From: a virus
Virus record (IMG/VR): IMGVR_UViG_3300032331_001279
Span: 1 to 32,987 of that record
DNA: 32,987 nucleotides
Reading direction: 5' to 3' (one strand)
In this document: in pieces, positions 12,867 through 26,955 of the stretch
Layout: each line of letters opens with the position of its first letter
Numbering within the stretch: position 1 is the stretch's first letter
Position numbers and translations under genes: made by a program
The notes under the pieces: model-generated
Seen by the model: the letters and a program-made list of their open reading frames with translations, nothing else
Told to the model about the DNA's origin: nothing
Databases searched by the model: none

Positions 12867-12887
12867 ACAACATCATTGGAGAAAAAT

Positions 12888-13619
12888 ATGAAAGACCACT
12901 TATTAGACATCGTACAACATACTCATGGACTTGGAATTATTAACCTTATTAAGGTTACAGGTACCGAAGAAGAAACTACACTGGAGGCAATCGACGTTGA
13001 GCGTTTAGTGATTGTCAAGGCTAAAATCAAAGGAGTCGTTCCAGAGTTTATTGGAACATTCGGTATGCCAAATTTGGCTAAACTGAACACAATTCTTAAT
13101 ACACCAGAATACAAAGAAGATGCCAATATTACAGTAACAAAAAAAGCGGTAACAAATGAACCAGATGGCATTCACTTTGAAAATAAAACAGGTGACTTTA
13201 AAAACGATTATCGTTTGATGGGTTCGGGTGTAATAGAGGCACAAATTAAAACTAGCAAATTGGTCAAAGAAATTAAATGGAGTATGGAATTTCAACCCAG
13301 TGCAATTAGCGCACAAAGGTTAAAATTTCAAGCCAGTGCTAACAGCGAAGAAACTAACTTTGTCGCTAAAACAGAAAACGGCGACTTAAAGTTTTTCTTT
13401 GGTGACCACAGTAGCCATGCAGGAGATTTTGTTTTCCATGCTGGTGTTAATGGGACACTGACCAAAGCACATCGTTGGCCGGTTAATGTTGTTATCGGCA
13501 TTTTGAGCTTGCCCGGTGACAAGACATTTAAGATCAGCGGTGACGACGGCTTGATTGAGATTGCTGTTGACAGTGGTCTTGCTGAATACCGTTACTTGCT
13601 ACCTGCACAGACAAAATAA
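12888..13619 (+). CDS. 45: DNA polymerase sliding clamp, T4 gp45-like
   Basis: 243 aa against 228 for T4 gp45. The internal stretch GTFGMPNLAKLNTILNTPEY (about 58-77 from this start) is a hallmark of gp45, and the protein has the expected alternating strand pattern. The trimeric clamp tethers the polymerase and, in T4, activates late transcription at TATAAATA promoters. The ATG at 12888 is chosen over a TTG at 12876 because GGAG at 12878-12881 sits six bases upstream. Clamp loader genes (gp44/62) are not in the window. It ends TAATG on the DpdA start. Confidence 0.92.
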   Translation: MKDHLLDIVQHTHGLGIINLIKVTGTEEETTLEAIDVERLVIVKAKIKGVVPEFIGTFGMPNLAKLNTILNTPEYKEDANITVTKKAVTNEPDGIHFENKTGDFKNDYRLMGSGVIEAQIKTSKLVKEIKWSMEFQPSAISAQRLKFQASANSEETNFVAKTENGDLKFFFGDHSSHAGDFVFHAGVNGTLTKAHRWPVNVVIGILSLPGDKTFKISGDDGLIEIAVDSGLAEYRYLLPAQTK

Positions 13620-15172
13620 TGCGTATCGACGATTTAACCAGCAAACAAAGTGATTATGCAGTGTTCTTGCCTGCATTGAGTAGCTTCTATGGTACTTACA
13701 TAGGCAAGCAACGGCATGATCCCAATTACATAGATCCCGGTCGTATACCTGCAGACTTTGAAAACGGCATTGAAGGCATGAACTGGCTTAATAAAGATGC
13801 CGCTTACTTTCCTTATAAGTGGGCATTGTACAGTGCAGGTCATGCTAACTTAGATACCAACAAGTTTGACCCCAAAGAAGACATGATCCGCAATCGCGAT
13901 CCCAATACATTTGTCTTGGGAGATTCAGGGGGATTCCAAATTGGTAAAGGAGTGTGGGAAGGCGATTGGAAAGATCCTAATTGCCCCAAGGCTGCTAAAA
14001 AACGAGCACAGGTTCTAAGCTGGTTAGATGCTTATTCAGATCGTGGAATGATTTTAGATATTCCTGCGTGGGTTGCTCGTAGTCCTGCAGGTCAACGTGC
14101 TACAGGTATCAGCACATATCAAGAAGCAGTTGATGCAACGTATATCAACAATGAGTACTTCATGAAGAATCGCACAGGGCGGTGTAAGTTTTTGAATGTA
14201 CTACAAGGTGAAAATCATACTGATGCAGACGATTGGTATGACCGTATGAAAAAGTATTGTGATCCTAAACAATATGCACAGCCATTTGAAGGTTGGGCCA
14301 TGGGCGGACAAAATATGTGTGATGTTCACTTGGTGCTACGCAGACTGGTGGCGCTGAGATTTGATGGATTACTGGAATCTGGCTTACATGACTGGATGCA
14401 CTTTTTAGGCACTAGTAAACTCGAATGGGCTACGCTGTTAACTGACGTTCAACGTGCAGTTCGTAAGCATCATAATCCTACATTCACAATTAGTTTTGAC
14501 TGTGCTAGTCCGTTTTTAGCAACTGCTAATGGACAAATTTACTATGATGTCAGCACAGAAGATAGGACTAAGTGGAGCTACCACATGCAACCTAGTGTGG
14601 ATAATAAAAAGTATGCCACAGACACACGCAGATTCGGCGATGCATTACTACAGGATAAAATCTTTGACTCGTTCTTAGAAAGCCCAATCAGTGAACGCAT
14701 GATGATTAAAGATGTTTGTGTGTACAAGCCCGGCGACCTAAATAAAATAGGTAAGGAAGGTAAAACATCTTGGGACAGTTTTAGCTATGCACTGCAAATG
14801 GGCCATAACGTATGGACACATATTCATTCTGTGCAAGAAGCTAATCGTCAATATGATGCTGGCAACTATCCCGAAATGCTAGTTGCTACCACAGCAGACA
14901 AGAAAACATTTCGTCGGTACGATAGAAACTTTTTTAGGGATATTGTTGATGATATTTTTGCTACCAGTGATAGAGGCCGAGCCGAAGAACTAGTAGAACA
15001 TTACAATAGATATTGGCTAAGTATTATTGGTACTCGAGGTGCAGTTGGTAAAAAGACTTTTAACTCAAGTACTGTGTTTAATGCTTTATTTGAACAAGAC
15101 GAACCTGTTGAATATCACACAGACGACAGCGGTCTTGATGATTCTAAATTAGACGTTTTGGAGGCTGAATAA
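13619..15172 (+). CDS. dpdA: DNA guanine transglycosylase, DpdA-type (TGT family)
   Basis: 517 aa. The tRNA-guanine transglycosylase fold is visible: DSGGFQ (D102-Q107) is the active-site base-binding Asp motif, FLNVLQGE (191-198) and GWAMGG (225-230) line the pocket, and SFDCASPF supplies the likely nucleophile D294. The usual Cys/His zinc site of tRNA enzymes is not obvious. DpdA exchanges guanine for a 7-deazaguanine in DNA, after replication. FolE, QueD and QueE in the same window support a DNA-modification role. It starts in a TAATG overlap with the sliding clamp, so it is probably expressed with the replication genes. The DpdA subtype cannot be assigned by eye. Confidence 0.88.
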   Translation: MRIDDLTSKQSDYAVFLPALSSFYGTYIGKQRHDPNYIDPGRIPADFENGIEGMNWLNKDAAYFPYKWALYSAGHANLDTNKFDPKEDMIRNRDPNTFVLGDSGGFQIGKGVWEGDWKDPNCPKAAKKRAQVLSWLDAYSDRGMILDIPAWVARSPAGQRATGISTYQEAVDATYINNEYFMKNRTGRCKFLNVLQGENHTDADDWYDRMKKYCDPKQYAQPFEGWAMGGQNMCDVHLVLRRLVALRFDGLLESGLHDWMHFLGTSKLEWATLLTDVQRAVRKHHNPTFTISFDCASPFLATANGQIYYDVSTEDRTKWSYHMQPSVDNKKYATDTRRFGDALLQDKIFDSFLESPISERMMIKDVCVYKPGDLNKIGKEGKTSWDSFSYALQMGHNVWTHIHSVQEANRQYDAGNYPEMLVATTADKKTFRRYDRNFFRDIVDDIFATSDRGRAEELVEHYNRYWLSIIGTRGAVGKKTFNSSTVFNALFEQDEPVEYHTDDSGLDDSKLDVLEAE

Positions 15173-15173
15173 A

Positions 15174-15386
15174 ATGTATGAAAATAGAATTGCACATTTA
15201 AAAGAAAGTCTTCGTGTATTGGATGAAAAAATTATACTACACGAAAAAGAACATCCACATTCCGAAAGTACACTAGTACAGGATTGGAAGAAACAGAAAC
15301 TCATGCTTAAAGATGAGATTCGAAAAATGGAACGGTTACAGTGGGAACACGACCACGAAACCGTAGATCTTGACGATCATCGATAA
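15174..15386 (+). CDS. Small coiled-coil hypothetical protein
   Basis: 70 aa, highly charged and helical, with heptad-like Leu spacing (LKESLRVLDEKI) and an acidic His-rich tail. A strong GGAGG ribosome binding site lies inside the end of dpdA. Family not recognised. Confidence 0.65.
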   Translation: MYENRIAHLKESLRVLDEKIILHEKEHPHSESTLVQDWKKQKLMLKDEIRKMERLQWEHDHETVDLDDHR

Positions 15387-15398
15387 ATCGTGTATAAT
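15370..15398 (+). promoter_or_regulatory. Sigma70-like promoter giving a leaderless start
   Basis: TTGACG (15370-15375), a 17-base spacer and TATAAT (15393-15398). A start seven bases after the -10 would be 15405, the first base of the next ATG. The spacer contains GATAAAT. The -35 lies within the end of the preceding gene. Confidence 0.72.
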
Positions 15399-15404
15399 GT
15401 TTAC

Positions 15405-15521
15405 ATGATTTATATTGTAAACAAAACAGGCGAAATAAAATTACCATATGAACCAGGCCTACTGGAATGGTTGCAGGAACACTATCCTCACAGTAAATAT
15501 CATTTAGAAGAAAGAACTTAA
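15405..15521 (+). CDS. Small hypothetical protein (38 aa), probably leaderless
   Basis: An ORF of 38 codons, MIYIVNKTGEIKLPYEPGLL..., ending TAA two bases before the next ATG. It fills an otherwise empty gap and has a near-perfect promoter directly upstream, but no Shine-Dalgarno. The expected transcription start falls on its ATG. The EWLQEHYPHSKYHLEER end looks like a folded mini-domain. Function unknown. Confidence 0.6.
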   Translation: MIYIVNKTGEIKLPYEPGLLEWLQEHYPHSKYHLEERT

Positions 15522-15522
15522 C

Positions 15523-15765
15523 ATGACTGTTGAACAAGCCGGAAATTTTTTAATTGGATCCATATTAGCTGGTATGGGGTTCTGCGTAATTACCATTGCC
15601 ATTCTTGTTATTAACAACCTATTTCATAAATATTGGAAACCTGTTACTTGGGGATTCTTACCCGAGTCAATGCGGACACCTTATCGTTTTCAACAACCGC
15701 ATGAACAAATGGATCACTATGAACCTAAAATAGAACCTACTTTGGACGATAAAGTTAAAAAATGA
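15523..15765 (+). CDS. Small single-pass membrane protein
   Basis: 80 aa with one strong hydrophobic segment at about 8-33 followed by a cytoplasmic-type Pro/acidic tail. It overlaps the next gene by four bases (ATGA). Function unknown. Confidence 0.65.
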   Translation: MTVEQAGNFLIGSILAGMGFCVITIAILVINNLFHKYWKPVTWGFLPESMRTPYRFQQPHEQMDHYEPKIEPTLDDKVKK

Positions 15766-16643
15766 AAAGTCTTGTAATTGGTATGGGTATAGGACAGTTG
15801 TATAAAACTGTGCTGACAGAGTTAGGGCACGAAATTGTAACAGTAGACATGGATCCTGCAAAAGGTGCAGACTTTTATGATTATGGGTTTGCATTTGCCG
15901 CACATGGTCATTTTGATACTGTACATATTTGTACCCCAAATTACACACACATCAATCTAGCCAGACATGCTGCCATCCACGATGCTGGTATTGTATTTGT
16001 TGAAAAGCCTGGCGTAGAAAACAGTGGTATATGGGCACAAATGTGTGAGGACTTTCCTAACACACGTTTTATGATGGTTAAAAATAATCAATGGCGTGAC
16101 AACATAGAACATCTAAAGGCTTTAGCCGATCAAGCAAAGACAGTAAACTTAAACTGGATCAACAAAGACCGTGTGCCTAATCCAGGTACTTGGTTTACCA
16201 CTAAACAATTGGCATTTGGTGGTGTTAGTAGAGACTTGATGCCTCATTTGTTAAGTTTATATATTGCACTAAATCCAGTGTGGCGCACAGACAATGTTAA
16301 TAAAATTGAAGCAGAAAGAAAATGGCAGCTCAATGAGTTAACTACCACAGACTATGGTCAAGTCAAAGCAGATGGCATTTATGACGTTGATGATGTATGT
16401 CGTATGATGTTTACTGATAAATGGAATCTAACTGCCGACTGGCGTAGTATGGATCAGGATCAACGCAACATTGAATTTATCATGCAGGATGACTCAGTAG
16501 AAACATTTGAACTAGGACTTTGTCCAGAGTATGCGTACAAAGAAATGATTCGTGACGCTGTAGCAAACCTAAATAACAATAAGTTCTGGAAAAATCAATA
16601 TGCCCAGGACATGTGGATCCATCAATTAATCGAAAACGTATGA
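15762..16643 (+). CDS. Gfo/Idh/MocA-family NAD(P)-dependent oxidoreductase
   Basis: 293 aa. An N-terminal Rossmann fold with GMGIGQLY (7-14), then HICTPNYTH (55-63) and the family marker EKP (81-83). The usual second-domain His is probably in the PHLL block. Such enzymes oxidise or reduce a sugar ring position, often on nucleotide sugars such as UDP-N-acetylhexosaminuronate. Its stop overlaps the next dehydrogenase as ATGA, and both lie upstream of a glycosyltransferase and an aminotransferase, suggesting a sugar-modifying pathway. Slightly short for the family. Confidence 0.82.
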   Translation: MKSLVIGMGIGQLYKTVLTELGHEIVTVDMDPAKGADFYDYGFAFAAHGHFDTVHICTPNYTHINLARHAAIHDAGIVFVEKPGVENSGIWAQMCEDFPNTRFMMVKNNQWRDNIEHLKALADQAKTVNLNWINKDRVPNPGTWFTTKQLAFGGVSRDLMPHLLSLYIALNPVWRTDNVNKIEAERKWQLNELTTTDYGQVKADGIYDVDDVCRMMFTDKWNLTADWRSMDQDQRNIEFIMQDDSVETFELGLCPEYAYKEMIRDAVANLNNNKFWKNQYAQDMWIHQLIENV

Positions 16644-17548
16644 ATAGAATATTAGCGACTCGGGGCGATGGCGCCTTTTATGAAACTACCTATGAGCGTC
16701 CTGTTTGTAGCGACAATGAAATAGGTGTAGTATCTATTATGACTGGTGTATGCCGCAGTGACATAGATATGATGTCAGGTAATTTTGGTCCACTGCCCCT
16801 ACACATGCAAGGACACGAAGGACTGGGTCAAGTGGTAGAAATTGGCAAGAATATCAAAGACGTTGATATCGGAGACTTTGTCGCTACACGTGGTGAACCT
16901 GCGTATGCCGACCAATACAATGTGCGCTGTGAAGAATATGTCCCTGTGCCAGAAGCGCACCCCCGCTACATATTGGAACCTGTGGCCTGCGGCATTAACA
17001 TTGTGTATCAAGCAGTACGTGAAATTGCAGAACGTGCAGGTCCAGGTAAGAGACTGCTTATATTAGGCAGCGGATTCCTTGCGTGGGTTGCATATAACAC
17101 ACTACTGCTCAATCACTTGGATGACTTTGAAATAACTGTAGTGGGAACCAGCAATAGAGACCTATGGGGAGATAGACTAAAACCCATTTATACAGGTACG
17201 TATGATGTTGTCATTGACTTGGGTGGCAGACCCACAGTGTTTACAGAAAACATTTTAAACAACGAAGCATTGGTTGTGTTCGGAGCACAGAAAACGGTTA
17301 CAACTGATTTCAGTAACTTACTTTGGAAAGCCTGTACAATGATCTTTCCTAGTCCAAGAACGGATCGTTTTTATAGTTGTATGCGCGATGCCGCATATTG
17401 GATCGAAAACGGTGATATCAATGTTGACAGTTTCTGGACAAAAGGCTATAATAGAGACACTGAGTGGCAACAGGCCTTCAGCGATGGAATCAACAGACCT
17501 CATGCTTACAGCAGAGGTTACATTAAATGGATAGATCATGGCAATTAA
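16640..17548 (+). CDS. Medium-chain (zinc-type) dehydrogenase/reductase
   Basis: 302 aa. GVCRSD with C38 and GHEGLGQVV with H59-E60 are the catalytic zinc site of the alcohol/sorbitol dehydrogenase family; EPVAC (113-117) and the Rossmann loop GSGFLA (143-148) follow. The structural-zinc four-cysteine lobe is absent. The C-terminal domain is shorter than in typical 340-aa enzymes. The ATG at 16640 is chosen over 16613 for its ATGA overlap. It probably oxidises a sugar alcohol or sugar hydroxyl together with the Gfo/Idh enzyme. Confidence 0.8.
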   Translation: MNRILATRGDGAFYETTYERPVCSDNEIGVVSIMTGVCRSDIDMMSGNFGPLPLHMQGHEGLGQVVEIGKNIKDVDIGDFVATRGEPAYADQYNVRCEEYVPVPEAHPRYILEPVACGINIVYQAVREIAERAGPGKRLLILGSGFLAWVAYNTLLLNHLDDFEITVVGTSNRDLWGDRLKPIYTGTYDVVIDLGGRPTVFTENILNNEALVVFGAQKTVTTDFSNLLWKACTMIFPSPRTDRFYSCMRDAAYWIENGDINVDSFWTKGYNRDTEWQQAFSDGINRPHAYSRGYIKWIDHGN

Positions 17549-18077
17549 TACAAGTGGACGTCAACAAGTAGATTATTTTGTTGGCATTGAAGTAGAAAAT
17601 ACTGCAATGAAAGGTCAAAAGACTTTGTTTGTAGTAGGAGTTAAACCTGTAGACGAAATCATTGCGCTTGCAGAAAAACACGATGTAAAACATTTGTACT
17701 TTGGTACAAGCCAAAGTTTTCATCCACACAGTCCTTATGACTGGGCCGCATGGGATGATATGATTAAACCTTTGTTGGTCAAAGACTATTGGGTTACGCT
17801 AGACTTTGGTGTTGAGTATTGTAAGGAAATTCACGAACAAGCATGGTGCGAATATAATACTTTTATTCCTATGATCAGTGTTAAGATTCCCTACATCAAA
17901 CTCTACAACTATAATGCTACAGTTAAAATTGATGACAACACTTGGGGTGATACCAATCCCGGTGTGTGGTGTCATCCACTAAACGAATTACTAACCAGGA
18001 ATGTATACACAGACTGGAAGGACTACACCGGAGATTTTCCTGTAACGCCAACACATAGTGGAAGTGAAGAAGAATGA
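17538..18077 (+). CDS. Conserved-looking hypothetical protein
   Basis: 179 aa, overlapping its neighbours by 11 and 4 bases. Compact soluble protein with Trp/Tyr-rich blocks (KHLYFGTSQSFHPHSPYDW, ISVKIPYIKLYNYNATVKI, TNPGVWCHPLNELL). It looks like a protein family shared by marine phages, but I do not recall a function. Its position beside the T-fold-like gene may indicate a nucleotide-related role; that is speculation. Confidence 0.7.
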   Translation: MAINTSGRQQVDYFVGIEVENTAMKGQKTLFVVGVKPVDEIIALAEKHDVKHLYFGTSQSFHPHSPYDWAAWDDMIKPLLVKDYWVTLDFGVEYCKEIHEQAWCEYNTFIPMISVKIPYIKLYNYNATVKIDDNTWGDTNPGVWCHPLNELLTRNVYTDWKDYTGDFPVTPTHSGSEEE

Positions 18078-18508
18078 ATCAAGAACAACGAGTAACTGTA
18101 GATAGGATCATGGAAGCCGCTGATCGTAAAATATGGATACGTTTTCAAAAAGAAGGTATTCATAAATACCCAGCGGCACTAGAAGATCCTAAATTAGCAG
18201 ATGTACAATTCCTTGGTTTTCCTCATCGTCATATTTTCCATTTCCGGGTGTGGATTGATGTGTTCCACAATGACCGGGATGTTGAGTTCATACAATTCAA
18301 ACGCTGGTGCGAATCGCTGTATAACGGTGACAATTCCGTTCTAGCACTAGACTACAAGTCATGCGAAATGATCGCAGATGATTTGTATGTACAAATTGCT
18401 GCTAAATATCCAAAACGCACAGTATGGATTGAGGTCAGCGAAGACAGTGAAAATGGTGCATTAATCAAATACGAATTAACAAAACCCTACAACTCAATCA
18501 AAATTTAA
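18074..18508 (+). CDS. Candidate T-fold (QueD/PTPS-like) protein with HRHxxH motif
   Basis: 144 aa. FPHRHIFHF (49-57) gives H51, H53 and H56, comparable to the zinc ligands of PTPS/QueD; HNDRDVEFIQFKR resembles the strand-loop that ends in a D-F-x-x-L-K pattern; SCEMIADDLYVQIAAKYP resembles the P-T-x-E-N-L-A helix; and WIEVSED (118-124) resembles the C-terminal V-x-V-x-E-T with E120 and E123. The order matches a T-fold. It lacks the exact QueD motifs, so it is not a standard QueD. In a 7-deazaguanine phage it could process CDG or a related base. The assignment is my own pattern matching. Confidence 0.5.
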   Translation: MNQEQRVTVDRIMEAADRKIWIRFQKEGIHKYPAALEDPKLADVQFLGFPHRHIFHFRVWIDVFHNDRDVEFIQFKRWCESLYNGDNSVLALDYKSCEMIADDLYVQIAAKYPKRTVWIEVSEDSENGALIKYELTKPYNSIKI

Positions 18509-18511
18509 TAA

Positions 18512-19120: not shown

Positions 19121-19135
19121 TCTTAGGAGAATAAA

Positions 19136-19339
19136 ATGGGACAACCTAAATGGGTAGAAAAATATCTGCGTATGAAGCCCGAAGTCAATCAAATTTTCAA
19201 CGACTTAGAAGGCTACAAAGATTACTGTAGACTTAACATGTTGAAGTTCGACGAAAAGGATTTGTATCGCAGTGAACAATACCGCAAATACGAAAAATAT
19301 CGTAACTGGTTAAACCGTCAAGCAGAAGCACATAGATAA
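19136..19339 (+). CDS. Small basic hypothetical protein
   Basis: 67 aa, charged and helical with many Tyr and Arg residues (YLRMKPEVNQIFNDLE...YRKYEKYRNWLNRQ). Clear AGGAGA ribosome binding site. Stop overlaps the glycosyltransferase ATG as TAATG. Function unknown. Confidence 0.7.
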   Translation: MGQPKWVEKYLRMKPEVNQIFNDLEGYKDYCRLNMLKFDEKDLYRSEQYRKYEKYRNWLNRQAEAHR

Positions 19340-20433
19340 TGTCTAAGATTTGGTTAGTTGATTTAGAAGCAGTTGAAACAAGGTACACGGCTCAGTGGAA
19401 AAGCCATGTACCTAAACTTTTACAAAAGGCAGGACACAATGTGGAAATTATCTCAGGCCCTGAAGATATACCTAGTGCTACTACTCCCGGTGCTTTTCTT
19501 AATTTCGGTGGGACTAATATATACAAAGCTAACCAAGTTGAGCAAATCAGTCGGCTATTTTGTAGCGGATCCATTCATGCTGGCGACCATTTTGTTTTTA
19601 CTGATGCTTGGCATCCAGGCATTATAAACTTAAGGTACATGAGTGAACTACTGAATATTCCAGTGGTCACACACGGACTATGGCATGCTGGCAGTTATGA
19701 TCCTCAAGACTTCCTTGGACGCTTGGTTGGCAAAAAGAAATGGGTTAGACACGCTGAAAAAAGTTTTTATCATGCGTTTGATCATAACTACTTTGCCACT
19801 GAGTTCCATGTTAAGTTGTTCATAGATGAATTACTTGAAGATGGATACCCTAGTGAAAATGCTTGGTATGAAGAAGACTTTGCCGAGCGATACGATGACG
19901 GCAAAATGGTTCGTACTGGATGGCCCATGGAGTATATGGACAATGCATTGACTCCATATAAAGATATGACTAAGCGAGACCTTATTGTGTTTCCACATCG
20001 TATTGCTCCAGAAAAGCAAGTAGAGATTTTCAGAGACTTAAAAGAACAACTACCACAATATGAGTTTGTTGTTTGTCAGGATCGAGAGCTTACTAAAAAT
20101 GAATATCATAACTTATTAGGCGAAGCTAAGATGGTGTTTAGCTGTAGTTTACAAGAAACATTGGGTATTGGCTGTTATGAAGGTGCGCTGGTAGGGGCTA
20201 TTCCATTGGTTCCAGATCGTTTAAGTTATACTGAAATGTATTACGATACATTCAAATATCCCAGCGAGTGGACTGAAAGTTTTGATGCATATACCGCGCA
20301 TCGACCAAACTTGTGTCGACTGATTATAGAACATATAGCTAATTACGATACACGACTTCCACAATTACGCAAGCAGGCAGATGATTTAACCAATAACTTC
20401 TTCAGCGCAAATGAGTTCCTCAAACGCCTTTGA
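19339..20433 (+). CDS. Glycosyltransferase, GT-B fold, family 4-like
   Basis: 364 aa. The C-terminal nucleotide-sugar-binding part contains SLQETLGIGCYEGALVGAIPLVPD (around residues 271-294), with the E-x7-E pattern of GT4 enzymes. The N-terminal half has the Rossmann-like layout of the acceptor domain (VTHGLWHAGSYD). It would transfer a sugar from a nucleotide donor to a surface polymer or phage target. The aminotransferase overlaps its end by 23 bases, linking the two. Confidence 0.75.
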   Translation: MSKIWLVDLEAVETRYTAQWKSHVPKLLQKAGHNVEIISGPEDIPSATTPGAFLNFGGTNIYKANQVEQISRLFCSGSIHAGDHFVFTDAWHPGIINLRYMSELLNIPVVTHGLWHAGSYDPQDFLGRLVGKKKWVRHAEKSFYHAFDHNYFATEFHVKLFIDELLEDGYPSENAWYEEDFAERYDDGKMVRTGWPMEYMDNALTPYKDMTKRDLIVFPHRIAPEKQVEIFRDLKEQLPQYEFVVCQDRELTKNEYHNLLGEAKMVFSCSLQETLGIGCYEGALVGAIPLVPDRLSYTEMYYDTFKYPSEWTESFDAYTAHRPNLCRLIIEHIANYDTRLPQLRKQADDLTNNFFSANEFLKRL

Positions 20434-21022
20434 TATAATATTACAGTTTGAACAAGAACTGGCAGAGTTTACTGGAGCTCCGTATGCAATTATGACTGAT
20501 TGTTGTACCCATGCGATCGAACTGTGCATGAGACATGATCGTGTAGAGTTTTGTACATTCACTCCTTTTACATATCTAAGCATACCCATGCTCATGCACA
20601 AACTAGACATCGAGTATGCGTATGAAGAGGATGATCCTGCTCAATGGATCGGTGAGTACCGTTTTCTATCAACTAGAATCTGGGATAGCGCACGTAGGCT
20701 AGAAAAGGATATGTATAAACAGGACCAGATGCAATGCCTTAGTTTTGGACACAGCAAGCCTTTACAAATAGGTCGCGGTGGTGCTATACTATTAGATGAC
20801 AAACAAGCGTATGAGGAAATAATTTTAATGCGTTATGATGGCCGCGACCTAAATAATATACCCTGGACAAAACAACAAAAGTTTAAAGTTGGTTACCACT
20901 ATAAACCCACCCCAGAGGAAGCGGAGATTGGCATTAAACTATTGGAAGGTATTCGAGTTAATCAACCCAAACCCGAATATGTTGAATATGCAGATCTAAG
21001 ACAATTTACTATTACGGATTAA
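20411..21022 (+). CDS. DegT/DnrJ/EryC1-type sugar aminotransferase, shortened
   Basis: 203 aa against about 360-400 for normal members. The N-terminal substrate-loop block FEQELAEFTGAPYAIMTDCCTHAIEL, a WDSARRL block with D92 in place of the usual E-D-A-A, and SFGHSKPLQIGRGG with the PLP lysine K116 are all recognisable. The large C-terminal domain is reduced to a short GYHYKPTPEEAEIGIKLLE tail. It may be a minimal active enzyme or have lost catalysis. DNA shows no stop or frameshift. It overlaps the glycosyltransferase, pointing to amino-sugar synthesis. Confidence 0.78.
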   Translation: MSSSNAFDIILQFEQELAEFTGAPYAIMTDCCTHAIELCMRHDRVEFCTFTPFTYLSIPMLMHKLDIEYAYEEDDPAQWIGEYRFLSTRIWDSARRLEKDMYKQDQMQCLSFGHSKPLQIGRGGAILLDDKQAYEEIILMRYDGRDLNNIPWTKQQKFKVGYHYKPTPEEAEIGIKLLEGIRVNQPKPEYVEYADLRQFTITD

Positions 21023-21023
21023 T

Positions 21024-21764
21024 ATGACAGAACCAGTATCAACAGATAACATAGACGACAAAGGTTATGAAATAGGTTACCTAGGTGGTGCTATTCGTGC
21101 TAGAATGAAACGCGAAGGCAAACGTTTCTGGGCAGGCGACAACATTAGCGAATACATCAAAGATGACTTTGATAAAAACGAGCTTATTGAAGAAGCCACT
21201 CGAGCATTCGAAGGTGTGCTCGATGCATTGCTTATTGATAGAGAAACCGACCCTAACAGCAAAGGCACAGCACGTCGCCTGGCTAAAATGTATTTTAACG
21301 AAATTATGGCAGGTAGATATGAACCAGGACCAGACGCAACAGCGTTTCCTAATGATAGTGAAGACCGTTACGAAGGCATGCTTGTTGTTCGTAGTGAGCT
21401 TCGTAGTATGTGTAGCCATCATCATCAGCCTGTTACTGGCGTTGCTTATATTGGAATCATTGCCGCAAACAAACTCATTGGATTGTCCAAGTACACACGT
21501 ATTGCCCAATGGTGTGCTCGTAGAGGAACCCTACAGGAAGAATTGTGTAATGACATAGCTAAAGAAATTATGAAGGCCACAGACAGTGAAAATGTTGGCG
21601 TTTATATTCAAGCAGTACACGGATGTTGCGAGAATCGTGGTATTATGGCACACAGTAGTCTAACACAGACCACTGTGTTAAAAGGTGCCTTTACCACTGA
21701 CTCGGGAACGAAGAAAGAATTCTTCGACAACATTAAACTACAACAAGATTTTGCCCCACGTTAA
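21024..21764 (+). CDS. folE: GTP cyclohydrolase I (FolE)
   Basis: 246 aa. Converts GTP to 7,8-dihydroneopterin triphosphate, the first step of both folate and 7-deazaguanine synthesis. SMCSHHHQP carries zinc ligands C130 and H133, HGCCENRG carries H199 and C201, and ANKLIGLSKYTRI with WCARRGTLQEEL is the family core. The N-terminal 100 residues include an extension relative to short bacterial forms. No other folate gene is present; with queD, queE and dpdA in the window it most likely serves the deazaguanine pathway. No Shine-Dalgarno is obvious. Confidence 0.93.
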   Translation: MTEPVSTDNIDDKGYEIGYLGGAIRARMKREGKRFWAGDNISEYIKDDFDKNELIEEATRAFEGVLDALLIDRETDPNSKGTARRLAKMYFNEIMAGRYEPGPDATAFPNDSEDRYEGMLVVRSELRSMCSHHHQPVTGVAYIGIIAANKLIGLSKYTRIAQWCARRGTLQEELCNDIAKEIMKATDSENVGVYIQAVHGCCENRGIMAHSSLTQTTVLKGAFTTDSGTKKEFFDNIKLQQDFAPR

Positions 21765-21779
21765 TTTAAGGAGAACATT

Positions 21780-22283
21780 ATGGCATTATGGACTGTAAGC
21801 ACACATTATAAAAAGAACGTTCAAGAAGTTGAAACATATACTCAACGCGGTGACGGCAAAGGTAAAGTAACTGTTACTAATGGATTCCGTTGGGGATCTT
21901 GGGAAGTTACCACTACTGATGACAATCCGCCCGAGTTTGAATTTACTGAAGTACCCGGAGGTGATGGTGCCAAAGACAGTATCGACATGTTAGAGTGCGA
22001 GTACAACAATATTGAAAGTGTTGAACTACTCAGCATGGATGACGGTGGTTGCTGGTATGACATCGAGATCGAAGGACTAGACGAAGAAGCTGAAGAAGAA
22101 ATTCGTGAGTTCTTAGATGAAAACAGTCCATATGAACTAGAAGAACGTGATGACGGTTGGATGCAAGACGACAGTGCATGGTGGATCTGGGGACCAATTG
22201 AGATCTGCAATGAAGCTGGAGAAACTGTGCGTATTATCTGTGCTGACGCAGATGGCAATGTCATCGACTTCAAGGACGAATGA
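21780..22283 (+). CDS. Acidic hypothetical protein
   Basis: 167 aa, very acidic, with a long Glu/Asp-rich centre (LDEEAEEEIREFLDE) and Trp-rich ends. Strong AAGGAG ribosome binding site. Such acidic proteins can mimic DNA or bind basic proteins, but I have no family match. The N-terminal LWTVSTHYKKNV reads like a phage conserved protein. Confidence 0.75.
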   Translation: MALWTVSTHYKKNVQEVETYTQRGDGKGKVTVTNGFRWGSWEVTTTDDNPPEFEFTEVPGGDGAKDSIDMLECEYNNIESVELLSMDDGGCWYDIEIEGLDEEAEEEIREFLDENSPYELEERDDGWMQDDSAWWIWGPIEICNEAGETVRIICADADGNVIDFKDE

Positions 22284-22492
22284 TGAGACCTGCAGACGCC
22301 GCCGGCAAAATATTGGATCGTGTAATGAACTTAAAAACTTACGTAGTTGAAGTAGCATTACCTGAAGAATTCGAATTCACTGGCAAAGTGCCATACGATT
22401 TGACAATTAAGGACGGAATTGTTAGAATAGAAATTCCCGCACTTAATGAAAAAGAAGCCGCATCTAAAGCTCGGCAATTCTTAAATGCATGA
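22280..22492 (+). CDS. Small hypothetical protein
   Basis: 70 aa. Starts in an ATGATGA overlap with the acidic gene, so either of two adjacent ATGs (22280 or 22283) may be used. Sequence suggests a beta-rich domain (TYVVEVALPEEF) and a helical C-terminus. Function unknown. Confidence 0.7.
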   Translation: MMRPADAAGKILDRVMNLKTYVVEVALPEEFEFTGKVPYDLTIKDGIVRIEIPALNEKEAASKARQFLNA

Positions 22493-22722
22493 AAGCCGCA
22501 AGCATCAAAATATGGGTCACTGCATTGACCGATGCGGCACCCATAGTCACTGAATCAGCGGCCGAGCTATTGTATTATCGTGCGGTCACTGCTTGGGCAA
22601 CCGATACTAAATTTGAAATTCAAGATGGTCGAGGCGGATGGGTAGACTTGACAAAGCTCTACGAACAATGTAAAATATTAACTTTACTTAAAGGAGAACA
22701 CAATGGCAACGAAGAAAATTAG
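22489..22722 (+). CDS. Small hypothetical protein
   Basis: 77 aa, starting on an ATGA overlap with the preceding gene and overlapping the next by 20 bases. Its last codons contain the ribosome binding site of the following gene. Function unknown. Confidence 0.6.
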   Translation: MKAASIKIWVTALTDAAPIVTESAAELLYYRAVTAWATDTKFEIQDGRGGWVDLTKLYEQCKILTLLKGEHNGNEEN

Positions 22723-22909
22723 CAAAATCGCAGACAAACTGGACAAAGTAAACGAATCATTTACAGTCAACATGTATGACAATGGCTTTATGATTGAAAT
22801 TGGTGGTCGTAAAAATGACGACTGGAAAACAGCAAAGATCATGGTTCCCACTATTGATGAACTAGTTGTGCTGATCAAAGAAGCCGCAGACATGGAGCGC
22901 GATAGTTGA
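22703..22909 (+). CDS. Small hypothetical protein
   Basis: 68 aa with the strong ribosome binding site AAGGAGA. Charged N-terminal helix followed by a beta-rich region (MYDNGFMIEIGGRK). Stop overlaps the next start as TTGA. Function unknown. Confidence 0.7.
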   Translation: MATKKISKIADKLDKVNESFTVNMYDNGFMIEIGGRKNDDWKTAKIMVPTIDELVVLIKEAADMERDS

Positions 22910-23253
22910 TTGGCACAATAAAAACAACTAGTAAGTATGTTGCAGTTACTGGCGGCCCTGCTGGTAACTATGTCAACAACAGTAATTACATGAGTGTTGG
23001 GGATTTACGATATAATACTAACAATCAGCAATTAGAACTGTACAATGGCAAAGACTGGCAACCCGTTAATCTAGGCACTTACCATGTTGATTTAAATCCA
23101 CATGCTGAAAATATACTTGACTGGGCCGCTAAAAAAATGTCCGAAGAACAAGAGCTTAAAGAGCGCATGGAAAAATACCCGGGTCTCAAAGATGCTTACG
23201 AGCAGTTTCAGATCATGGACGCACTAACAATGAAAGAAGAACAAAATGTTTAA
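22906..23253 (+). CDS. Hypothetical protein with virion-like N-terminus (TTG start)
   Basis: 115 aa. TTG start overlapping the previous stop as TTGA. Residues about 29-55 (MSVGDLRYNTNNQQLELYNG...W) follow the G-x-L-R-Y-N...W pattern common in phage tail and fibre domains, although this gene is among metabolic genes. A charged coiled-coil-like helix (SEEQELKERMEKY) follows. Function unknown. Confidence 0.68.
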   Translation: MIGTIKTTSKYVAVTGGPAGNYVNNSNYMSVGDLRYNTNNQQLELYNGKDWQPVNLGTYHVDLNPHAENILDWAAKKMSEEQELKERMEKYPGLKDAYEQFQIMDALTMKEEQNV

Positions 23254-23542
23254 ACGATGGTTACGAAATTGGTTAATGAATGACGAGTCAGAAAAACGCC
23301 AGCGAGCGGAGAAATATTCCAACTCTATTATCACCGGCGGCTCAACGTTCAACGCCGATGATCATCGTGTTAACACTTTAAGATTTAATGTCACTCCTGC
23401 AAGGGGAGGTGTTGTACTTACAGTTAAAAACTACGATCGTAAACGTGACGAAGACCATTGTACTGTTCACGTTCTCCATGACGGCCAAGACTTAGCCAAA
23501 GACATTGGCGACATTGTTAGTATGGAATTGTTGCGCTCATAA
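23246..23542 (+). CDS. Hypothetical protein
   Basis: 98 aa, overlapping the gene before it by eight bases. A basic amphipathic N-terminal helix (FKRWLRNWLM) precedes a beta-rich body (PARGGVVLTVKNYDRKRDEDHCTVHVL). It ends TAATG on the next start. Function unknown. Confidence 0.7.
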   Translation: MFKRWLRNWLMNDESEKRQRAEKYSNSIITGGSTFNADDHRVNTLRFNVTPARGGVVLTVKNYDRKRDEDHCTVHVLHDGQDLAKDIGDIVSMELLRS

Positions 23543-23883
23543 TGATTCGACTACCCCCAGGCTGTACTGTTGGCTATGGCATTCGCATAGACATTGACAA
23601 TTTATCAGATGACATCATCGAGTGGTATGAAACTGTTGGTGGTGTTATAACTGAAAGCAAACACTACGACCGTAGAGGTAAAGAACAAGTAACGACTTAT
23701 GTACAATATGGTAAGTCAAAGAAATGCCATTATCATCACAATGGTGAATCCAATGCTGTCAGACTTCATTTCCTTGGGGAAGATGCTAGTGTTGCCAGTA
23801 TGTTCTTGTTAAAGTTTATGGAACATGTAACTGACCATAACCTTAAGGAAGTGATGCACAGGATCGAGTACGATAAATACTAG
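23542..23883 (+). CDS. Hypothetical protein
   Basis: 113 aa, TAATG-coupled to the preceding gene. Contains a Lys/His-rich loop (SKKCHYHHNGESN) that might bind metal. Followed by one of the few intergenic gaps (77 bases), which carries a promoter. Function unknown. Confidence 0.7.
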   Translation: MIRLPPGCTVGYGIRIDIDNLSDDIIEWYETVGGVITESKHYDRRGKEQVTTYVQYGKSKKCHYHHNGESNAVRLHFLGEDASVASMFLLKFMEHVTDHNLKEVMHRIEYDKY

Positions 23884-23915
23884 TTCAATCCAGCGGCCTT
23901 TGAGCATCATCCCGC

Positions 23916-23944
23916 TATACAAATTCTGCTGCCTATGCTAAAAT
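23916..23944 (+). promoter_or_regulatory. Extended -10 sigma70-like promoter
   Basis: TATACA (23916-23921), a 17-base spacer and TAAAAT (23939-23944) with an upstream TGC, giving an extended -10. AGGAGA at 23950-23955 then precedes the methyltransferase ATG. It marks a new transcription unit. Confidence 0.6.
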
Positions 23945-23960
23945 TAACATAGGAGAACCA

Positions 23961-24680
23961 ATGAAAGATGTAAACAAGTTGCTAAACAAAAAATGGTTTG
24001 GCGGACTTTATCACATTTATAGTACTAACGACACATGGGAACAGTGGATTGATGAATTTGAATCATCGTATCAGTGGAGTGATCATGATGCTGAAAAGAT
24101 CATTAAAGTCTTAGGTAATAATCTACTTTATATAAAAGATAAAAACGTAATCGATCTTGCATGTAACCTTGGGTATTTTACTCTTGCTAGTAGTAATATC
24201 GGAGCAAAAAATGTAACAGGTGTTGAAGTAAGACAATTATATATTGATGTCTTCGATAAAGTTAAAACACATTGGCCGCATAACAATGTAACTGTGGTAA
24301 ATGCCAACTTAGAAAAAATTGATATATTAAATAATATATTGATCGATGTTGATACAATATTATACACAGGACATTTATATCACACTGTGAATCATTCATT
24401 TATCCTAAATGCATTTACAAAAAGTTCAGCTACATGTATAATAGTAGAATCAATAATTCCTAAATCCACTACTGAATTTAAAGAATCCGTTACAGATCCA
24501 TTAAATGGGTATATCGATGAAAGCACACTTATGGTAAATGCTCGTGCTCCTTCGATAGCTGAAACAAAAAATATGATATCTTCACTGGGATGGACTGTTG
24601 TCAGTGAAGATATCATTAATAGTTTTAACCCAAAAAGATTTGTAATTACAGCAACACGAAACACAGGAGAACAAACATGA
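23961..24680 (+). CDS. SAM-dependent methyltransferase (CmoB-like fold)
   Basis: 239 aa. Motif I VIDLACNLGYFT (63-74) and motif II VTGVEVR with the acidic ribose-binding residue after it are clear; this arrangement with a short N-terminal region is like tRNA carboxymethyl/methoxyuridine methyltransferase relatives. It is AT-rich and has its own promoter, suggesting a recently acquired cargo gene. It overlaps queD by four bases. The substrate could be a nucleobase, a sugar or a small acid; unknown. Confidence 0.75.
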   Translation: MKDVNKLLNKKWFGGLYHIYSTNDTWEQWIDEFESSYQWSDHDAEKIIKVLGNNLLYIKDKNVIDLACNLGYFTLASSNIGAKNVTGVEVRQLYIDVFDKVKTHWPHNNVTVVNANLEKIDILNNILIDVDTILYTGHLYHTVNHSFILNAFTKSSATCIIVESIIPKSTTEFKESVTDPLNGYIDESTLMVNARAPSIAETKNMISSLGWTVVSEDIINSFNPKRFVITATRNTGEQT

Positions 24681-25174
24681 CACCCGTATTATACAAATAC
24701 ACTAGTACTAAAGAGTACCACGACGCATTTCCTTGCGCTTATCGCCAATGGCGAGCAGACAGTCATTGCAATCTAATACATGGCTATTCGTTTAGTATGA
24801 AATTTTACTTTGGTACAAATGATTTAGATGTTCGTAACTGGGCCGCAGACTACGGCGGACTTAAAGAACTTAAGAAGATACTTGAAGATCAATTCGACCA
24901 TACACTTATTGTAGCACAAGATGATCCAGAACTGGCAACATTTAAGTTGTTGCAGGAAAAGAACATGGCCAAGATTGTTGTACTACCCAAACTAGGCTGT
25001 GAAGGACTTGCAGATCAACTGTATAAGTTTGTGAATGGTGTTTACATTCCCGACAATTGGGGGCCAGGTGAAGCAGAACGCTTATGGTGTTATCGTGTTG
25101 AAGTTAGAGAAACACAAAGTAACATGGCTTTCCGTGAAGGTCACCGCGAATGGAATGAGGACTTGTTCGTATGA
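24677..25174 (+). CDS. queD: 6-pyruvoyl/carboxy-tetrahydropterin synthase-like protein (QueD)
   Basis: 165 aa. QueD makes 6-carboxy-tetrahydropterin for 7-deazaguanine synthesis. C31 and H35 in HCNLIHGYSF match the catalytic Cys and a zinc His, FDHTLIV (73-79) matches the catalytic D/H, LGCEGLADQLYKF is the helix of the P-T-x-E-N type, and VEVRET is the C-terminal substrate Glu. Two zinc positions appear changed: HGH reads HGY (Y37) and the first His reads Y22 (CAYRQ). H30 may substitute. It overlaps the methyltransferase and the next small gene as ATGA. Confidence 0.8.
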   Translation: MTPVLYKYTSTKEYHDAFPCAYRQWRADSHCNLIHGYSFSMKFYFGTNDLDVRNWAADYGGLKELKKILEDQFDHTLIVAQDDPELATFKLLQEKNMAKIVVLPKLGCEGLADQLYKFVNGVYIPDNWGPGEAERLWCYRVEVRETQSNMAFREGHREWNEDLFV

Positions 25175-25269
25175 AATGGCCCACTGCAAGACTCTATTGC
25201 CCAAACTGTTTTGATCAATTCTCCCGGGTACGAATACTGGGTATATGGTATTCAAAGCACAGGTGCTGA
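25171..25269 (+). CDS. Very small Cys-rich protein (32 aa)
   Basis: A 32-codon ORF starting on the ATGA overlap with queD and ending three bases before the next ATG. C10-PN-C13 and a terminal KHRC (H30, C32) could form a zinc knuckle. It fills the gap between queD and the next gene exactly. Function unknown. Confidence 0.5.
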   Translation: MKWPTARLYCPNCFDQFSRVRILGIWYSKHRC

Positions 25270-25271
25270 TA

Positions 25272-25622
25272 ATGGTTGATGTGTACCAGTTGTCAAAAGC
25301 AGAACTGTGGAAACTGATTGACAGTTTTGGCCGTGAGAACACAACGGTTGCGGTCACCGACAACACTGTGCGGATCACTACTCAGTACCAAGATACAGAG
25401 TATCCCATTAGAACATCCTACTACTTGGATGAGTGGGATCGCATCATCAATATTGAATGTGGCTGGTACCGCAGGAATCACAATCTGGTGTTTTGTTACA
25501 ACGAAGGCAAGCGTGAGCATTTTTTCATTGACCCTGTGGGACTAGAAAATCATCTCACGAAGTATGCAGAACTGATGCAAGCTCTCATAAGAGATAAGGT
25601 AGGAAGGTTGAAAAATGATTAG
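25272..25622 (+). CDS. Hypothetical protein
   Basis: 116 aa. The ATG at 25272 (MVDVYQLSKAELWKL) is preferred over one at 25245, which would run through the end of the small upstream gene. Helical N-terminus, beta-rich middle, and a helical end. Overlaps the next gene by eight bases. Function unknown. Confidence 0.68.
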   Translation: MVDVYQLSKAELWKLIDSFGRENTTVAVTDNTVRITTQYQDTEYPIRTSYYLDEWDRIINIECGWYRRNHNLVFCYNEGKREHFFIDPVGLENHLTKYAELMQALIRDKVGRLKND

Positions 25623-25836
25623 TTTATTTTTATTTGTTGTTATTTTGTTCATATGGGGTTATATGGTATTTGGTAATCATTTCACATGGCAAGAACGCCG
25701 CAAAGAATTATGCAGTATAGGCGAACATTGGTTGACTGAAAAAAGCCTTGAGTTTCACAATAAACAAGGTCAATATTTCACTGAGCAACATTGCAGAGCC
25801 TGCGATTATATGAAAGTCACAAAGGTCGAGAAATGA
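25615..25836 (+). CDS. Small membrane-anchored Cys/His protein
   Basis: 73 aa. A hydrophobic segment at about 2-20 anchors it in the membrane; the rest carries C33, H37, H59, C60 and C63 (EQHCRACDY), which could form a zinc site in the cytoplasm. ATGA overlap with the MazG-like gene. Function unknown. Confidence 0.66.
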   Translation: MISLFLFVVILFIWGYMVFGNHFTWQERRKELCSIGEHWLTEKSLEFHNKQGQYFTEQHCRACDYMKVTKVEK

Positions 25837-26105
25837 ATTCAAAAATAGAAGAAGCATTGGGTATACTGCAAGAAGAATGTGCAGAGGTTATTGTAGAAGT
25901 AAGTAAATGCCGTAGATTTGGTATCGACAGCGTACACTATAAAACTGGTATCGAACACTCCAAAATGCTTGAGTTGGAAGTGGGAGATGTGTTAGCATTA
26001 GTAGATATTCTTGTTGAGCAAGGCGTTTTAAATACAGCAGTATTAGACATTGCCAAAGCAAACAAAAAAGAAAAACTTAAACAATGGTCAAAAATATATG
26101 AGTAA
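25833..26105 (+). CDS. MazG-like nucleotide pyrophosphohydrolase
   Basis: 90 aa. LQEECAEVIVEVSK (11-24) is the E-E-x-x-E-x-x-x-E-x-S-K helix and LELEVGDVLALVDILVEQG supplies the E-x-x-D metal-binding pair of the MazG fold. These enzymes hydrolyse (d)NTPs to monophosphates; phage versions alter nucleotide or alarmone pools. Here it sits between queD and queE, where it might sanitise or recycle nucleotides linked to deazaguanine synthesis. ATG at 25833 is chosen for the ATGA overlap. Confidence 0.78.
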   Translation: MNSKIEEALGILQEECAEVIVEVSKCRRFGIDSVHYKTGIEHSKMLELEVGDVLALVDILVEQGVLNTAVLDIAKANKKEKLKQWSKIYE

Positions 26106-26955
26106 GATTAAAATATCGGAATTATTTTATAGTGCCCAAGGCGAAGGTCGCTTTGTTGGCGTTCCTAGTGTGTTCTTACGCACATATGGTTGTAACTTTA
26201 AATGTGCAGGCTTTGGCTGTAAGCCCGGCGAACTTAGCACAGAAGCAGACGAAGTAGCAAAGAATATTCATCTGTACAAAACGTTTGAAGAACTGCCTTT
26301 AGTCAATACAGGTTGCGACAGCTATGCTAGTTGGCATCCTGCATTTAAAGATCTAAGTAACACATACAGTATAGACGAAATCGTTGAAAAAATGTTGGCA
26401 CTGACTCCTAATGGTCGTTGGGAACAAAACAATGGCAATGACGTGCATCTTGTTATTACAGGCGGAGAACCTTTGTTAGGTTGGCAACGTACATATGAAG
26501 AATTATTAAGTCATCCCCGTATGCAAGATATTCACAGTATTACATTTGAAACAAACGGTACCCAAGAACTCAGCAGTAAATTTAAAGAATTTCTAGATGA
26601 ATGGTATCGTGGAGATAGAGAAATTACATTCAGTGTAAGTCCTAAGTTGTCTGCCAGTGGTGAAGCATGGGAAGAAGCTATTCAGCCTGAAGTTGTTGTG
26701 GGATACCAAAACTACGGATACACTTATTTGAAGTTTGTAGTAGAAACAGAAGCACACTTTGATGAAGTGGATCGTGCAGTAGCAGAATATATACGAGCAG
26801 GATTCCATATGCCTGTTTTTGTTATGCCACAAGGCGGTGTAGTTACCCCTTATGAAAAAAATCGTGTCAATGTTGCTAACTGGGCACTGACTAGAGGTTA
26901 CAACTACAGCCCACGCCTACATGTTGACCTTTGGGGCAACGGTTGGGGCAAGTAA
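26098..26955 (+). CDS. queE: 7-carboxy-7-deazaguanine synthase-like radical SAM enzyme (QueE)
   Basis: 285 aa. QueE converts carboxy-tetrahydropterin to CDG. YSAQGEGRFVGVPSVFLR (11-28) is the family signature, followed by C32 and C36 of the cluster motif; TGGEPLLGW (121-129) binds SAM. The third cluster cysteine of C-x3-C-x2-C is replaced by Phe (CNFKCAGF); C41 and C73 (TGCDS) are the alternatives. A 50-residue insert separates the cluster loop from the rest of the fold. The ATG at 26098 is preferred over one at 26050. It overlaps MazG by eight bases and the next gene as TAATG. Confidence 0.88.
   Translation: MSKIKISELFYSAQGEGRFVGVPSVFLRTYGCNFKCAGFGCKPGELSTEADEVAKNIHLYKTFEELPLVNTGCDSYASWHPAFKDLSNTYSIDEIVEKMLALTPNGRWEQNNGNDVHLVITGGEPLLGWQRTYEELLSHPRMQDIHSITFETNGTQELSSKFKEFLDEWYRGDREITFSVSPKLSASGEAWEEAIQPEVVVGYQNYGYTYLKFVVETEAHFDEVDRAVAEYIRAGFHMPVFVMPQGGVVTPYEKNRVNVANWALTRGYNYSPRLHVDLWGNGWGK

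Follow-up and report, generated by a model that had tools for sequence, protein, structure and literature searches.

Modification of phage DNA with 7-deazaguanines has been described as a system in which the phage encodes the precursor enzymes FolE, QueD, and QueE together with DpdA, an enzyme with the tRNA-guanine transglycosylase (TGT) fold (Hutinet 2019, PMC6884629). Two phages whose gene set is full except for QueC are named in the same article: Mycobacterium phage Bipper, where 7-carboxy-7-deazaguanine (CDG) was suggested, and an uncultured, incomplete one (PMC6884629). Here, we analyzed an IMG/VR virus record of 32,987 bases (IMGVR_UViG_3300032331_001279; hereafter the window), probably a fragment, which encodes FolE, QueD, QueE, and a DpdA-like transglycosylase and gave no match to QueC. 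Two conserved genes lie between dpdA and folE, namely, c3, a QueD paralogue, and GT, a glycosyltransferase homologue (the labels c3, GT, and c4 were coined in the present analysis). By gene content, a DNA base derived from CDG is well supported, and a glycosylated 7-deazaguanine is our best reading of the linkage among these genes, one that we favor mildly. An earlier sequence-only reading of the window had the pathway stop at CDG, which is probably wrong given the conserved c3 and GT, both of which it had overlooked. That reading had also predicted a carboxylated or decarboxylated 7-deazaguanine in DNA; the derivation from CDG is supported, and the final base is more likely processed, perhaps glycosylated.

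The window encodes all three precursor enzymes of phage 7-deazaguanine (Dpd) DNA modification, which together would convert GTP to CDG. All three lie on the plus strand. FolE, GTP cyclohydrolase I (21024..21764), matched PF01227 with an E value of 1e-38 and phrog_2197 with 2e-44. A phage-type QueD (24677..25174) matched PF01242 (4.3e-14) and phrog_2389 (3.4e-35) and kept Cys31, Asp74, and His75, with HGY in place of the HGH motif. QueE, the radical S-adenosylmethionine (SAM) enzyme 7-carboxy-7-deazaguanine synthase (26098..26955), matched phrog_2076 (3.1e-52); a TTG at 26050 begins its open frame, and translation more likely starts at the ATG at 26098. Numbered from that TTG, Cys48, Cys52, and Cys89 were invariant in 32 of 32 aligned sequences, and a motif of the form CX3CX4C was ruled out, as conservation puts the third cysteine at Cys89. 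None of the three proteins exceeded the curated NCBIfam equivalog cutoffs, and QueE also fell under the Pfam Radical_SAM cutoff, indicating that they are divergent members of their families. Phage QueD proteins, including those of the window and of loci L085, L086, and L090, mostly carry HGY instead of HGH, Tyr or Phe at the first zinc His, and an extra His before the catalytic Cys. The number of QueE-profile matches was unusually high in some phage records (16 in that of L251, 9 in that of L116, and 7 in that of L001); most of these matches are weak and probably belong to other radical SAM genes.

The DpdA-like protein (13619..15172, plus strand) had zero matches in Pfam, PHROGs, and NCBIfam, and its name was therefore tested by fold. 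An AlphaFold2 model built from 25 sequences had a predicted local distance difference test score (pLDDT) of 80, and all six of its matches in the Protein Data Bank (PDB) at an E value of 0.001 or lower were TGTs. TGTs were also ranked first by VIA-align (Z 18.2, root mean square deviation [RMSD] 4.5, 298 residues aligned). Asp102, Ser103, Gly105, and Gln107 of the DSGGFQ stretch, together with Asp147, Gly197, Gly230, Asp294, and Ser297, did not vary among the 84 members, and Gln196 was kept in 83 of them; we take the roles of these residues to be those of the Zymomonas TGT. The protein thus combines a TGT fold with conserved active-site residues, as expected of a DNA guanine transglycosylase. 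The assignments of FolE, QueD, QueE, and DpdA in the sequence-only reading were borne out at the positions given there, FolE and QueD by PHROG and Pfam matches, QueE by its PHROG match, and DpdA by fold and motif residues. The window DpdA had no match to phrog_10773, the type found in phages nt-1 and ACP17, at an E value of 0.01 or lower, and was related to it only at the profile level (hhalign probability of 88%, E value of 2.9e-6). Because nt-1 matches phrog_10773, this family would be DpdA2. The search with the window DpdA returned 21 phage records, none of them a Campylobacter phage, and Vibrio phage 2.275.O carries a DpdA of the window family (31% identity, 3e-25). In the record of L142 (G059), dpdA is split over two frames, possibly by a frameshift, a sequencing error, or pseudogene formation.

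QueC was sought at a cutoff of 22 bits, and 12 of 14 control genomes were positive. The window record had no match, as had been noted from its sequence. A first set comprised 41 of the records behind 80 DpdA-seeded loci, mostly the longer ones and many of them fragments; QueC exceeded the cutoff in none of these relatives, with one match of 18.7 bits below it. The set includes the 157-kb record of L001, whose DpdA, FolE, and QueD are 92%, 96%, and 98% identical to the window proteins and in which FolE, QueD, and QueE were present and QueC was not found. This search beyond the window supports the earlier claim that the gene set yields CDG rather than PreQ0. A second set comprised 53 records, many of them fragments, with 13 isolates and 40 contigs picked by length from the GT and c3 scans, and four exceeded the cutoff: nt-1 (5.7e-54), Vibrio phage 2.275.O (1.7e-51), D479 (32.8 bits, partial), and contig G043 (24.4 bits). 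We judged only the first two to be true QueC. Six further records of this set had matches of 15 to 20 bits, under the cutoff, with X1 at 16.2 bits. Vibrio phage 2.275.O combines its window-family DpdA with QueC, QueF, and a YhhQ-type transporter and has neither c3 nor GT. In the same phage, an amidoligase-like protein (L083 13723-14835; PF12224, just under the cutoff) follows dpdA, beside QueF, the YhhQ-type transporter, and QueC.

It is very improbable that QueC lies elsewhere in the genome or is supplied by the host, so that the base would be derived from preQ0. The window is probably a fragment, weak or partial matches over the cutoff occurred in G043 and D479, and of the 11 loci with a YhhQ-type (Vut_1) transporter, mostly near-identical contigs, 9 have it directly next to GT. 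Against this, QueC was not found in the 157-kb relative and did not exceed the cutoff in 10 of 11 c3 isolate genomes searched, D479 being the exception. Altogether, the searches support the lack of QueC as a trait of this phage group, as judged from sequence.

The c3 gene (18074..18508, plus strand) belongs to phrog_17812, for which no function is annotated. A profile of 14 diverse c3 members was compared with a QueD profile that included E. coli QueD, and the two were related with an hhalign probability of 91.7% and an E value of 7.9e-7; a narrower pair of c3 and QueD profiles gave 75.8%, and the c3 profile against GT, as a control, gave 0.1%. Thus, c3 is homologous at the profile level to the T-fold proteins of the QueD/6-pyruvoyltetrahydropterin synthase (PTPS) family. 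His51 and His53 of c3 aligned with the HGH pair of QueD both in this profile alignment and in an alignment with E. coli QueD alone. His30 fell on the first zinc His in the latter and four positions off in the former, and Glu98 and Glu123 aligned with conserved QueD glutamates. His30, His51, His53, and His65 were present in 77 of 77 rows, and Glu98 and Glu123 in 76. In both alignments, the position of the QueD catalytic Cys is occupied by Leu47 in all 77 c3 rows. Without this residue, c3 is unlikely to make 6-carboxytetrahydropterin (CPH4). A search of the c3 alignment against PDB sequences gave nothing meaningful, as was the case for the DpdA and GT alignments. Two c3 proteins are fusions (L093 9212-10363 and L096 9443-10324): in MA9V-3, c3 is joined to an endonuclease VII-like domain, and in Bakedbeans, it is preceded by some 260 N-terminal residues that had no match in PHROGs.

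The distribution of c3 was examined together with that of QueC. None of 14 control cellular genomes had c3, and 26 of 50,697 phage records had it; FolE and QueE were present in 11 of 11 c3 isolate genomes searched. Co-occurrence was counted in 25 large or complete records picked via a DpdA, GT, c3, or QueE match, comprising 12 IMG/VR contigs (107 to 344 kb) and 13 isolate genomes. In this set, c3 was found in 23 records, and the two without it were the two with strong QueC, suggesting that c3 takes the place of QueC in the gene set and should act on CDG or its product. Accordingly placed in the gene set, c3 is a candidate CDG-processing enzyme. The deoxynucleosides of CDG (dCDG) and of decarboxylated CDG (dDG) are known phage bases, and Cui and colleagues reportedly predicted in 2023 a CDG decarboxylase, DpdL. 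A plausible candidate for this enzyme, c3 is possibly DpdL.

The GT gene (19339..20433, plus strand) encodes a protein with a predicted GT-B fold closest to GT4 enzymes (model pLDDT of 82). Foldseek matched the model to glycogen synthase (1.7e-10) and BshA (8.9e-9), and the superposition on BshA had a Z score of 22.8 and an RMSD of 3.1 over 303 aligned residues; identity to GT4 structures was about 10 to 13% over the alignments. The protein carries R221 and K226 and an EX7E motif (E273 and E281), which we take to be a GT4 motif. Of 67 aligned rows, 64 kept R221, K226, and E281 (the other 3 being gaps), and 63 kept E273 (3 gaps and 1 Asp); BUCT-ZZ01 has Asp in place of the first Glu. The fold and the EX7E motif together identify a GT4-type protein, for which glycosyl transfer with retention is predicted. 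GT exceeded no Pfam or NCBIfam cutoff and had no PHROG match, and its best match among viral models was ACP17 (E value of 9.7e-30). Relatives were recovered with alignment A7 as the query; a scan with the single X1 GT recovered none. Four isolates had GT matches without c3 (PhiXhv-12, -15, -16, and Ep032), of which the PhiXhv-12 locus was inspected. In this Xanthomonas phage, a remote GT homologue lies beside genes annotated as GlmS-like and as a BshB-like deacetylase (L089 7798-11032), a neighborhood that suggests a glucosamine pathway.

The GT model also matched the cyanobacterial tetrahydrobiopterin (BH4) glucosyltransferase (5zer, 6.7e-7), and FolE and PTPS-type genes are present in the locus, so that FolE, the QueD-like protein, and GT might make a glycosylated pterin instead of a DNA base. 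We regard this as highly unlikely, since glycogen synthase and BshA score above 5zer, the 27th match, and since QueE (25 of 25 records) and DpdA (28 of 28 long GT loci) would be left without a role. The T4 alpha- and beta-glucosyltransferases (AGT and BGT) were not among the 50 fold matches listed for GT, which excludes nothing. GT might, in the manner of T4 AGT, act on 5-hydroxymethylcytosine (hmC) or a similar pyrimidine, the deazaguanine pathway being unrelated; T4-like phages can glucosylate hmC, and 5 of 17 GT records have a gene of the thymidylate synthase family, possibly ordinary ThyA or an hmC synthase. The other 12 records, including the complete genomes ACP17, BUCT-ZZ01, and X1, lack such a gene (contigs may be incomplete), and GT comes after c3 and DpdA. 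There is thus very little probability that hmC is the acceptor.

Next, the linkage of GT, c3, DpdA, and the precursor genes was examined. Open-frame clustering over 89 sequences gave the conserved proteins between DpdA and FolE, and three seeds (DpdA, GT, and c3) gave 236 IMG/VR loci in all; the GT scan took the best 80 of 585 relatives and the c3 scan the best 80 of 575, with 78 new loci each. Among the 80 DpdA-seeded loci, c3 was found in 67, GT in 62, and c4 in 70, and each was present in 25 of 25 loci of at least 18 kb. The 78 GT-seeded loci contained c3 in 76, window-type DpdA in 72, FolE in 58, and QueE in 44; in the 28 of at least 18 kb, DpdA, c3, and FolE were each present in all 28 and QueE in 25. 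The two GT-seeded loci without c3 (L123 and L139) have the contig start 380 and 1327 bases before GT, and c3 may have been cut off there; in the five without any DpdA, 380 to 1515 bases of contig precede GT. In the 236 loci taken together, c3 accompanied GT in 178 of 180.

In the 25 records, FolE and QueE were each found in 25, c3 in 23, GT in 17, and window-type DpdA in 14, the GT and DpdA profiles used being partly built from those same records; a QueD-type protein (phrog_2389) was found in 20 records at an E value of 0.001 or lower, two of them weak. All 17 GT records had c3, FolE, and QueE, and none had QueC over the cutoff. Among the 50,697 isolate records, 20 had GT, 26 had c3, and 16 had both, in five lineages, an overlap with a hypergeometric probability of 2.8e-52 when relatedness and duplicate records are ignored. 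The genes also overlap one another: dpdA and GT by 1 nucleotide (nt) in Paride and by 4 nt in ACP17, and c3 and GT by 4 nt in Phosso. The second DpdA family, phrog_10773, likewise occurs with GT and c3 in ACP17, BUCT-ZZ01, X1, and 7 of 7 contigs carrying this family.

The pathway might nevertheless end at dDG (or dCDG), close to the earlier reading, with c3 as the CDG decarboxylase (DpdL) and with GT modifying a phage protein, a host surface glycan, or another base. Six isolates (phiST, RHph_I1_18, Ahp1, Bakedbeans, D479, and MA9V-3) have c3 with FolE and QueE and without GT, which points to a c3 pathway that can do without GT, and dDG offers no acceptor group at C7. However, GT was never apart from c3 in the 17 GT records, nor in 178 of the 180 IMG/VR GT loci, and in three lineages its frame overlaps that of dpdA or c3. 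We consider this ending rather unlikely, although it is far from negligible.

The whole pathway, from CDG through processing by c3 and insertion by DpdA to glycosylation by GT, is in our view somewhat probable. QueC would not be used; c3 would process CDG, most likely by decarboxylation to 7-deazaguanine, and DpdA would swap guanine in the phage DNA for the c3 product. This exchange would free guanine, which a phosphoribosyltransferase (PF00156; in 52 of 78 GT-seeded loci and not seen in the window) could return to GMP. As a last and optional step, GT would add a sugar from a nucleotide-sugar donor to the deazaguanine, and some members would supply sugar-tailoring enzymes. Of these elements, the precursor enzymes, the DpdA fold, the GT4 fold and motifs, the kinship of c3 with QueD, the co-occurrence, and the absence of QueC come from the homology and fold comparisons, and the reaction of c3, the action of GT on the deazaguanine, the order of the steps, and the sugar are inferred. 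Several points weigh against this pathway. GT was found in only 40 of 78 c3-seeded loci, and 6 of 23 c3 records lacked it, so that GT is at most an optional step. PhiXhv-12 has GT without c3, and remote GT homologues thus exist outside the pathway. Contig G043 (L099), which carries GT and c3, has a QueC score, summed over weak pieces, above the cutoff. The relation of c3 to E. coli QueD alone reached only 36.9% (E value of 3.6e-4). Many loci are close relatives, and the scans share some of them, which keeps the counts from being independent. Conserved GT neighbors also lie outside the scheme: one small protein abuts GT downstream in 59 of 68 loci and another upstream in 39 of 46, and of the 181 GT loci, 67 encode a cupin-looking protein and 56 a HIT-domain protein, with examples at L031 7496-7858, L014 13531-13788, L006 19753-20199, and L243 17481-17858.

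The chemistry raises a further objection, as decarboxylated CDG has no oxygen or nitrogen acceptor (hydroxyl or amine) at C7. GT would then have to form a C-C bond, unless the carboxylate of CDG is kept and esterified or GT has another target; with the CDG carboxylate as the acceptor, c3 is left without a clear role. Of the 181 GT loci, 28 and 23 have members of families resembling 2-oxoglutarate (2OG)-Fe(II) oxygenases near GT (one member per family was checked in Pfam, and one of these was below the cutoff), too few to be a general source of a hydroxyl acceptor. As a tentative product, with a likelihood just short of even, we propose DNA with a glycosylated 7-deazaguanine, in the form of a C-glycoside at C7 of 7-deazaguanine or of an acyl glycoside of CDG; the sugar would in some cases be an amino or epimerized one.

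Upstream of dpdA, a protein of phrog_12062 (12876..13619, plus strand; function not named there), in our own reading probably a T4 gp45-like sliding clamp, overlaps the dpdA start by 1 nt and has a homologue in this position in 80 of 80 DpdA-seeded loci. c4, a conserved protein of 179 amino acids (aa) (17538..18077, plus strand), overlaps c3 by 4 nt; ACP17 and 64 of 78 GT-seeded loci also encode it, and its alignment had no match among PDB sequences. Three further genes on the plus strand, the first and last of them accessory, encode homologues of a DegT-type sugar aminotransferase, compact at 203 aa (20411..21022; PF01041, 5.8e-14), a Gfo/Idh/MocA-like oxidoreductase (15762..16643; below the Pfam cutoff), and an alcohol-dehydrogenase-like protein (16613..17548; PF08240). 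The DegT-like gene overlaps the GT end by 23 nt and was found in 22 of 181 GT loci, abutting GT in 11 of these 22; the other two were each found in 27 of 181. Of the 12 loci with an NAD-dependent epimerase, 10 have it directly beside GT; for the epimerase and the DegT-like family, one member each was checked in Pfam. Class III aminotransferases are also near GT in some members. The Gfo/Idh/MocA-like protein is possibly a nucleotide-sugar enzyme, and the epimerase, both kinds of aminotransferase, and the Gfo/Idh-like protein may fit a role in tailoring the donor sugar. A CmoB-like methyltransferase (23961-24680; PF08003 over the cutoff, TIGR00452 at 4.5e-9 and below it), which overlaps the QueD start by 4 nt, was dropped as a pathway member, with a match in 1 of 80 DpdA-seeded loci at 31%. 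A radical SAM-looking protein (10738-11859; CxxxCxxC by eye, matching only phrog_29267, which has no annotated function) is flanked by the DNA polymerase and a methyltransferase-like gene (11861-12841) and was found in 8 loci. A further radical SAM protein, weakly matching SPASM (L245 13528-14553), is encoded in 4 loci and directly adjoins GT in 3 of them.

No report of a glycosylated 7-deazaguanine or of a pairing of DpdA with a glycosyltransferase was found in the titles, abstracts, and passages of the open-access literature, and nothing relevant on dDG, DpdL, DpdM, DpdA3, or a CDG decarboxylase was found there among the matches listed. The DNA sugars known to us all sit on pyrimidines. If our proposal is true, no purine carrying a sugar in DNA was known to us before this one, and it would add a new class to the hypermodified bases. 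Many phage contigs from the environment would encode it, as would cultured phages, Paride and ACP17 among them, and c3 (phrog_17812) and the GT family would gain a function. Because the same genes occur in the cultured phages BUCT-ZZ01, ACP17, Phosso, and the PA5oct/Paride group, the prediction can be tested at once.

The phages with dDG or dCDG and DpdL, reportedly described by Cui and colleagues (2023, NAR), likewise lack QueC, and GT is not known to be part of that scheme. GT shares the GT-B fold, EX7E, and R-x4-K with the retaining GT4 enzymes BshA, MshA, and glycogen synthase and, unlike them, is linked to DpdA genes. Like the T4 DNA glucosyltransferases, it would add a sugar to a phage base after replication, T4 acting on hmC. 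Compared with the systems of Hutinet 2019 (PMC6884629), the present locus has the same FolE, QueD, QueE, and DpdA, no QueC, and, in addition, c3 and a glycosyltransferase. In a report on carboxymethylcytosine hypermodification by CmoX and CmoY (PMC12783734), CmoX is a cytosine C5-methyltransferase homologue, another type of protein than the CmoB-like one of the window. That system and the one proposed here would both use a base carboxyl as the handle for a second group, in the former on a pyrimidine through an amide (PMC12783734) and in the latter on a deazapurine with a sugar.

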